A stretch of 64,000 bases of DNA, from positions 156,789,043-156,853,042 of the forward strand of contig CP136069.1 of assembly GCA_032622095.1 (NCBI GenBank). The letters are read 5' to 3'. Numbering within the stretch: the first letter of the stretch is position 1; every line of letters starts with the position of its first letter. The notes under the pieces were generated by a model. The model had not been told where the DNA came from, ran no database searches, and saw nothing but the letters and a program-made list of their open reading frames with translations. A program made the position numbers and the translations under genes. Below, piece after piece: positions 36,601 through 39,600 of the stretch. The stretch is from Siphonodentalium dalli (lineage: Eukaryota > Mollusca > Scaphopoda > Gadilida > Siphonodentaliidae).

Positions 36601-39600
36601 CGCTCCCCAAAACCTGGCGGAAAGCCTGTATATGGTGTCACATAAATGAGGGTGAAGACTACCCCACCCCATCCATTGAAATTTTGGTGATATCAGTTGC
36701 TTATTCCTTATCACTGAACCCTTCCAATTTAGAGACAATTTTGACTTGTAAGTTCTTCCTATTCTAAAAATTCCATTCAATACACGTAACTATTCCACTA
36801 ATCTAGTAGAATTACATGTATATGGGGTACTTGGCATTACAAACTAATTTAGATTTAATATCAACGTTTTGACCTGTCAAGCAAACATCAGCTGGGAGAC
36901 AACTCTATCAGGGAATATACATGTAACAAACAGACACTGCAAATCGGCACTACGATCTACATGTATTTGAACACAATACTATTAATTAGCACTATTAGGT
37001 ATGATATAACGAGACGTATAAGAAGCGCTAAATTGTTTAGAATATTCCGTCTGAGCAAAGAAATATAAATAAGCAGACGGATCTTGTTGTTTTTCGACTT
37101 GAATGTCAAGAAAGAATATCAATGGAAGCATCCAAAATATGTGTCCAACAGCATCTGGCAAATATGTACATGTACAGGTATGCTGGTCTGGCGTCCGGAA
37201 TATGCCGGGCCACAAAACTATTAACAGACCCCGAATCCGGGTTCCGTAAAAAGGGGTTGTCAGACTTGTCACCCTCATAAATTAAGTGAGATTTTGGGAA
37301 TCCCAGGTACCCTAATCAAAATTTCAGAGATCCTGTGCACTCTAATCAATGGGGAAGGAGAGGGGCAGTCCCATTCATTGTCTGGCACTGTGCAGGACTG
37401 CAGTCTCAGTCTGTAGCAGTGGGCTGAGTCGGTGATTGGAGTCGTCAGTGTTGAGTGGTTTGCTTATTGCAGACTATACAGTAATTGTGCTGAATTATTG
37501 AATATCAAAATGTATAGTTAATCTACAGCCAAGTTTTTTAGAGTACCGCTATTGTGTCAATCAACAGTTTATAATTAAATATTTCATATCTATAGGTATG
37601 TGACAGAACGAACTTGTCGAAGTCATGACATCGTGGGATTTTGGCCATAAAAGTGTGACTCATTTTTAGCTTTTTAAAATTGTGTTATGTTTTGGATGTT
37701 TAGGCTTTAGCTGAAGAAGAATAATGGTTAATAGTGCCTGGAGTTGATTTTTCCCTCGCTATTACATCATGAAAGTAATTGTCTAGCTCATATCTCAAAT
37801 AAAAAATATCAAATTCGGCTCATATCTCAAATAAAAAATATCGAGTTCGGCAGTTACCGGTATAAATAAAATAAAAAAAAGTTCAAATCTACCCTTCATA
37901 CATGTATGTAGCGATCGCGTTGTAAATATAGAAGGCTGATGACTTAAGTTAAGCAACGTCAAGCTCAGCTAGTCCTTGTGTGGGTGACCGGCTTGGAATT
38001 TCGGGTGCTGCCAACTTTCGGTGCGACTCCCGCACTTCTCTCTCTCGTTCTGTTACACTGGGGACTCGTCTGCTCCTCGGAGTCTGTGTCATGATGTGAC
38101 TGCTCTGGGGGAGGACTCGGTGAGATTCAGTGAATCTCAAACAGAATGGGGGAGTAGTGTAGCGGTCGCATTGTAAATATAGAAGGCCGATGACTACTCT
38201 GCTCAATTTAAGAGGTCTAGATCTCTTGGTCACAGTTGTTAGACGCTTTGTCTGATCACCGAAGTTAAACTTCGAGCTCGGTTAGTCTTTGGATGGGTGA
38301 CCGGCTTCAGGCGGCTTGGGATTCCAGGTGCTGCCAACTTTCAGTGCGACTCCCGCACATCTCTCTCTCATTCTGTTACACATATTCAAACTGAAGGAGT
38401 GTATCGAAGTCCTATGATATTCGGTAATCTCATACGACTTCCCCGTCGATAACATTTTGGGCTGAAGTTTGTTAGAATGTACCGCCCACCTCCCCCAAGC
38501 CCTCCCACCCTGCCAAGTTTATTTCCTATAGTATTGTTGAAATGTGTCTCTCTGTGGTGTGATTCTTTTGGTGTGCCCGTTATTTAGTAAAGGTGATTTT
38601 TTTACTAAATAACGGGTATGTTAGAGTTATTTAGAAGTCCATGCAGAAAAATATAATGATGAAATGGCAGTTTCAATGGTCAAATCTGCAAAAGGCACGC
38701 CACACTGAAGAGCTATTCCCCAATGTAGTGGAGGCGGTAAAATATGTGAAGAACCATATCAGTGATGACGAACAAATACAACATAAAACGAACAGATTGA
38801 GATCCGGACACTCCAGCTTGAAGGGACACATCGGGAAATTCATAAAGGATACCACCACAAGCTGTGAAGGCGGTAACAAGGAAACGGTGTGCCATTTCAT
38901 TCTGGAATGTCAATTGTACGCTGTCGAAAGGGAAGAAATGATAAATGAGATCGAGATGGGGTTCGTTCAGACTGAAGTAGAGGTTGATAAAAGAATGATT
39001 AATGCCAGATCACTGATTGGAGATAGCTCTTATTTAAATATGACTATGCAGCAAATTATCCAGAAGGCGGTTCATGGCTTCCTTTCGGCTACATTGAAAA
39101 GAATTTGAAAATCCGACCTTTCCGTTATGAAGTAGAGAGTATCAGTAATTGCAGTAATAATACCTGAGGGAACACAGCACATGAGTTCTTATTCAACGGA
39201 TAGTGAATAGCGGAAGTCAATAACAACAACGTTAGAGTTATATTTCTTTGAAAAACTCAAAACATTGGGCGACGACGGGGAAGTCGCATGATATTGCCTG
39301 ATATTCTTCAATATAGTACATGTGCAAAATTTCAAGAAATTCTATGTTACTACTGAGTACTGTACCATTGGTAGACAACATATTTTTTTAACGAGCATAA
39401 AATTTAAGACACAACGGAAATCCATTATTATTATTAAGTCCATTAAATGGTGACGTCGTCAGAGGCTAATTACGCCAAAACGATATCACATCTACGTGTA
39501 TAGTGCTAATGATAATCATAAACCAATGGCCTAATATACATGTATGTCAATATGAATGATTATGAATATATAACGAAAACAGGAAACGTAAAAATATACC

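Follow-up and report, generated by a model that had tools for sequence, protein, structure and literature searches.

In the literature covered here, which comprised titles and the openings of abstracts and lay largely outside subscription journals, LTR elements driven by a 5S rRNA promoter form one group in animals (Ajax) and one in plants (Cassandra). No other animal 5S TRIM was recognised in that material, and the term 5S rRNA does not appear in the consulted portions of a paper on bivalve TRIMs (PMC6934838). According to the sections consulted of its published description, Ajax occurs in two nemerteans, produces 5-bp duplications, uses a tRNA-Leu primer and is 421 or 434 bp long (Kojima 2024, PMC10886601). 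The family described here resembles Ajax in being a gene-less animal TRIM with a partial 5S sequence (boxes A, IE and C) in the LTR and a tRNA primer site, but it differs in its 4-bp duplications, in a length of mostly ~520-530 bp, in residing in a third host, and in a primer site that matches host tRNA-Pro as opposed to tRNA-Leu. Since both the duplication length and the primer are unlike those published, the family is not filed as Ajax.

In plants, Cassandra likewise carries a 5S promoter in TRIM LTRs and forms tandem LTR-interior arrays, as described in the parts consulted of two papers (PMC7215508, PMC10853983). These are short arrays of about three LTRs, and Cassandra retains the 5S terminators and has the primer site TGGTATCAGAGC (PMC7215508, in part). 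In contrast, the present family has a tRNA-Pro site and lacks TTTT in 53 of 69 near-full LTRs; neither the primer site TGGTATCAGAGC nor a conserved polymerase III terminator in the LTR was found in it, and we infer that its origin is likely independent of Cassandra. Another point of comparison is Helenus, whose animal families, like ours, duplicate 4 bp of target and have a small-RNA promoter within the LTR, according to the part consulted of the same source as for Ajax (PMC10886601). Helenus carries a tRNA rather than a 5S sequence. The 5S-derived SINEs (SINE3) also possess a 5S internal promoter; they are not known to have LTRs, a primer site or a purine tract. The present family works like Ajax and Cassandra, with a primer and a footprint unlike those described for Ajax.

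Layout and state of the window copy

The original prediction for the window (the whole 64,000-nucleotide stretch analysed here) described two direct repeats, TGTAGCG...GTTACA, enclosing 100 bp that open with a TGG-starting, PBS-like sequence and close with a purine tract before the second repeat. All of these were located (Table 1), and the proposed interpretation, a TRIM with a 5S-derived segment in its LTRs and a Cassandra-like layout, is borne out by the family copies and by the match to host 5S genes described below. The animal group Ajax, which it named as known from nemerteans, corresponds to a real report (PMC10886601, seen in part).

Table 1. Features of the window copy, 37907-38380 (151-bp LTR, 100-bp interior and 223-bp LTR), in window positions
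Feature	Position	Strand	Remarks
5' LTR	37907..38057	+	151 bp, TG...CA; starts TGTAGCG at 37907, ends GTTACA at 38057; internally deleted, ~65 bp lost upstream of 5S box A
5S-derived segment of 5' LTR (boxes A, IE, C region)	37946..38010	+	Rfam; limits set by eye against host 5S genes
Interior	38058..38157	+	100 bp, gene-less; opens with C-TGGGGACTCGTCTG
Primer-binding site TGGGGACTCGTCTG	38059..38072	+	2 changes from the commonest family form, TGGGGGCTCGTCCG
Small hairpin GAGATTC / GAATCTC	38122..38138	+	5' of the purine tract
Polypurine tract before 3' LTR	38140..38154	+	end of interior, directly 5' of the second repeat; same place in other copies
3' LTR	38158..38380	+	223 bp; starts TGTAGCG at 38158, ends GTTACA at 38380; box A lacks 3 bp; 10-bp insert
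5S-derived segment of 3' LTR	38254..38333	+	from about 5S nt 41; basis, host 5S genes
Left 4-base flank TGTA	37903..37906	.	right flank 38381-38384 is CATA

An Rfam 5S_rRNA match spans window positions 37904-38016 at 33.6 bits (E = 4.5e-5), below the 38-bit cut-off, at which no family matches anywhere in the window; the 3' LTR is not among the Rfam 5S matches. Allowing up to 3 changes, the window contains two instances of a 24-base LTR motif that 100 shuffles failed to produce even once; together with at least 77 matches in the genome this argues that the element is not a product of chance.

The copy is old and decayed, with its 5S part damaged in both LTRs, which differ by a K2P distance of 0.14. 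The predicted loss from the left LTR was confirmed as a deletion in an old copy, although relative to the right LTR it amounts to ~65 bp rather than about 70 bp. The shortened copies L025 and L038/L040 are broken at other points, and the deletion therefore looks private and was rejected as a subfamily trait. The damage to box A, together with the insert, in the 3' LTR and the loss of the stretch before box A in the 5' LTR suggest that the copy is probably dead. The two 4-base flanks differ, and no exact target duplication is present here.

Pfam matches none of the six reading frames in the window that reach 120 aa. A 157-aa frame adjoining the element (38635-39105), with no Pfam match, looks like the end of a LINE reverse-transcriptase protein. 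Elsewhere in the window, identical or near-identical reading frames at 47211-51003 and 53723-57067, ~6.1-6.5 kb apart, suggest a local duplication.

Family copies, target duplications and solo LTRs

The genome searched comprises 2,226,750,531 bases (2.23 Gb) in nine contigs, with the window on contig 9. When 40 of 1946 first-look candidates were scored, at least 77 matches to the element were obtained; they fall in 40 places, all of which were taken (43 loci, L041-L043 repeating L003, L004 and L006) and which represent the best matches to an old copy rather than a random sample. The landmark order is mostly LTR, primer site, purine tract, LTR. Among 82 delimited LTRs, 69 are 205-217 bp long, and 42 of 49 interiors measure 97-102 bp; a typical copy has ~211-bp LTRs (TG...CA) around a gene-less interior of ~100 bp with primer site and purine tract, and two-LTR copies are mostly 515-540 bp. 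These are the hallmarks of a TRIM, i.e. two LTRs of ~100-250 bp, a primer site, a purine tract, a total below 1000 bp and no genes. Exact LTR ends number 401 genome-wide, against 0 in the control. The family is interspersed and comprises at least two subfamilies, A and B. Tandem arrays of about 311 bp are also present, two three-LTR arrays (L067 and L085) each lie inside one intact duplication, and one copy of 913 bp (L022) has an enlarged left part and a target duplication.

Hairpin-like arms, with at most one change per arm, occur in all 49 interiors examined, and the hairpin before the purine tract is perhaps a packaging or priming structure. In subfamily B copies (L054, L055 and L086), the stem is longer and spelled differently, with compensating differences.

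The original prediction expected 5-bp target duplications, as published for Ajax, but the footprint of this family is 4 bp. Exact 4-bp duplications lie outside the outermost LTR ends at 22 of the 40 places, compared with 33 of 1560 crossed flanks, some of the misses being places at which a single LTR, or a wrong start, had been identified, and two of the 22 (L004 and L040) being segmental duplicates. Thirteen further chains yielded eight more (L059 being L037 again). With the repeats L004, L040 and L059 removed, the count is 27 of 50 (P = 4e-32 under the crossed-pair rate), so that the target-site duplication has the fixed length expected of a TRIM. Exact 5-bp duplications were found at 0 of the 40 places and in 0 of the 13 chains. 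In 20 of the duplications a palindromic preference is apparent, with T at -2 in 16, C at 1 in 13, G at 4 in 10 and A at +2 in 12; palindromic sites are expected where an integrase cuts both strands symmetrically.

The two LTRs of an element also share rare variants, as predicted if both were copied from one template. Over 26 pairs, 30 such variants are common to both partners, where 5.0 are expected and 0 of 10000 shuffles reach this number; 17 of the pairs have one or more in common, and the window copy has none. Counting against the pairing, an LTR's own partner is its nearest relative by raw distance in only 9 of 56 cases, which we read as reflecting a star-like family. Divergence within pairs ranges from K2P 0.013 to 0.174 (median 0.060, 28 copies).

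Solo LTRs with duplications exist. On contig 1 they were sought at 20 exact LTR ends, left from the first 26 after four known places and one close pair had been set aside. Neither purine tract nor primer site is present at 11 of these, two have the purine tract only and one the primer site only; for the other six the LTR start was not located, two of these having a primer site. An exact 4-bp duplication flanks three of the 11 solo-like LTRs (L103, L107 and L108; crossed control 7/110), and a fourth, L098, shows a 5-base match inside a GT repeat. Common flanks indicate that a single solo LTR, amplified as part of another repeat, accounts for L096, L104, L105, L106 and L108; the right flank reads CATG, and L108 has the exact CATG duplication.

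Putative promoter, primer site and candidate partners

Host 5S genes lie on at least three contigs (47 of 95474 first-look candidates scored). Aligning the LTRs to them, as the original prediction had proposed, revealed an uninterrupted 53-base identity between L010 and host 5S nt 41-93. The first 40 nt of 5S are missing from L010, and in the other copies compared they can be aligned only loosely. With boxes A, IE and C at about 50-64, 67-72 and 80-97 of 5S, the identical stretch covers A, IE and most of C, placing the 5S-derived boxes within the LTR as in a 5S-type TRIM (TRIMp3). Among 20 other loci, four have an Rfam 5S_rRNA match (E up to 0.01), all below the cut-off, as does one of five further loci (E = 0.079). 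No tRNA was found in the window, nor by Rfam in the 20 loci (E up to 0.01) or the five (E up to 0.5). A comparison of four copies, two from each of subfamilies A and B, showed near-identity over the first 34 LTR bases and a common 5S segment together with some of the sequence after it, but divergence in the stretch between those first bases and the 5S segment. All four have a TATA-like TAAATATA at about LTR position 17. Conservation of the 5S boxes among copies is no better than that of the rest of the LTR. TTTT occurs in 16 of the 69 near-full LTRs and in 0 of 49 interiors (61% and 0.8% in shuffles), a scarcity that is only suggestive, the copies being related. In subfamily B (L055, L065 and L066), the sequence upstream of the 5S part includes TTTGGTCCAGTGGTTAAGACGC, which is similar to a tRNA A box, and Rfam detects no tRNA there at E up to 0.5.

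The commonest primer site, TGGGGGCTCGTCCG, is present in 21 of 49 interiors, most others being 1-2 changes off (the readings in L006 and L008 are misplaced). A comparison with host tRNA 3' ends, also called for by the original prediction, gave a match to tRNA-Pro(AGG), as identified by ARAGORN: TGGGGGCTCGTCCG is complementary over 14 bases to CCA plus the tRNA 3' end, and in L086 and L088 the match extends over 18 bases. The 21-base 3' end of host tRNA-Pro occurs 272 times in the genome; among the first 100 of these, a dense array at G000:C3:244.76-245.64 Mb is often spaced at 1413 bp. LTR/primer-site junctions (up to 1 change) number 430, against 12 for the reversed pattern, although this is not a pure family count. 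Among the first 30, 16 have the landmarks of a shortened TRIM copy carried inside another repeat and multiplied with it (L060, L061, L064, L069 and L072-L083; flanks read in five, well matched in four), and two (L056 and L071) look like other, larger elements.

In our judgement the element is very probably a TRIM, a non-autonomous LTR retroelement, equipped with an internal promoter of the 5S type and probably transcribed by RNA polymerase III. In such a scheme, TFIIIA and RNA polymerase III would initiate ~50 bp inside the 5' LTR, and the RNA would read through the 3' LTR and end at a T-run beyond it, since most LTRs lack TTTT. A transcript lacking its own terminator would continue beyond the 3' LTR without necessarily impeding strand transfer; termination within the 5' LTR would cut it short. 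First-strand synthesis would be primed by tRNA-Pro and second-strand synthesis by the purine tract, with reverse transcriptase and integrase presumably supplied by an autonomous Gypsy-like element whose primer site is the same and whose LTR end is similar.

Two elements are candidate partners on the basis of such similarities. The first, L056, shares its LTR end, CCTGTTACA, with the family. Its tRNA-Pro site extends over 18 bases, and of its frames of 196 and 224 aa the longer has a weak Retrotrans_gag match (E = 0.006, 17.2 of 24.1 bits, below the Pfam cut-off). The following 6 kb yielded neither a second LTR nor, in the three frames scanned with Pfam out of seven sense frames of at least 70 aa, any pol, and a search with the gag-like frame returned nothing at E up to 0.001. 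The other, L071/L084, has GGCGGTTACA, the same 14-base primer site, and a 225-aa frame with no Pfam match at E up to 0.01. With the 4-bp footprint and the tRNA-Pro site, these candidates make the question of the mobilising autonomous element testable in one genome. At L092 (G000:C2:216064850-216065400), an L071/L084-type LTR is followed by the primer site, a near-perfect tRNA-Pro palindrome and LTR-like sequence again, which looks like an aberrant reverse-transcription product retaining a copy of its primer tRNA.

Alternative readings and the host

For the same TRIM, the TATA-like box could instead serve as an RNA polymerase II promoter, with the 5S part as a passenger or enhancer, a reading to which the near-identity of TAAATATA and the first 34 LTR bases in the A and B copies lends weight but which we regard as unlikely. 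The 5S promoter region is kept in those copies as well, in L010 to the point of identity with host 5S, while the LTR stretch preceding it differs between A and B; moreover, some 5S genes themselves use an upstream TATA-like element. A far less probable explanation, which we judge scarcely credible, is a 5S-derived SINE (SINE3) or a 5S pseudogene spacer repeat mimicking an LTR pair. While 5S-like words are very common in this genome, as the first-look candidates attest, and the ~311-bp arrays would suit a spacer repeat, such a unit does not account for TG...CA ends, a primer site, a purine tract and the coexistence of two-LTR and solo forms, nor for three-LTR arrays within a single intact duplication, and it was rejected on the 4-bp duplications, the shared rare LTR variants and the solo LTRs. 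The original prediction had itself named a 5S spacer repeat without TG/CA-bounded insertions, solo LTRs or duplications as the result that would speak against it, and all three exist.

That the element is Ajax itself, a nemertean lineage whose primer site and duplication length differ in the present host, is possible though doubtful. The design is the same, the LTR holding no more of 5S than its promoter part, and the primer has switched more than once in fungal Helenus, as stated in the part consulted of the source that also gives the 5 bp, tRNA-Leu and 421/434 bp of Ajax, to be set against the 4 bp, tRNA-Pro and mostly 515-540 bp found here (PMC10886601). Duplication length is set by the integrase and drifts less freely. 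A TRIM with a 5S-type promoter, not filed as Ajax, is the reading we prefer, and we put at about even the prospect that, after Cassandra and Ajax, miniature LTR elements have here captured a 5S promoter independently for a third time, with a different integrase class (4-bp cut), a tRNA-Pro primer, at least two subfamilies and mostly no T-run terminator in the LTR; 5S capture would thus be a recurrent route for LTR parasites. Such a family, with several hundred LTR ends (the 401 exact ones) and a different primer and footprint, would point to repeated origins of this design.

The nemertean host that had been proposed is unsupported. A nemertean neural-globin query gave one non-significant match (E = 1.76), in a 160-aa frame resembling some globin, and a mollusc haemocyanin domain was not found in a genome search run without a positive control. 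Judged by size and chromosome number, the genome is neither that of Lineus longissimus (391 Mb, 19 chromosomes; PMC8593623) nor that of Notospermus geniculatus (859 Mb; PMC8468679), the two known Ajax hosts. Beside the subfamily B copy L086, two long C2H2 zinc-finger frames (L086:1511-3571) fit an animal. One host 5S gene starts with GTCTACGGCCATATCACG, which looks animal and lophotrochozoan-like.
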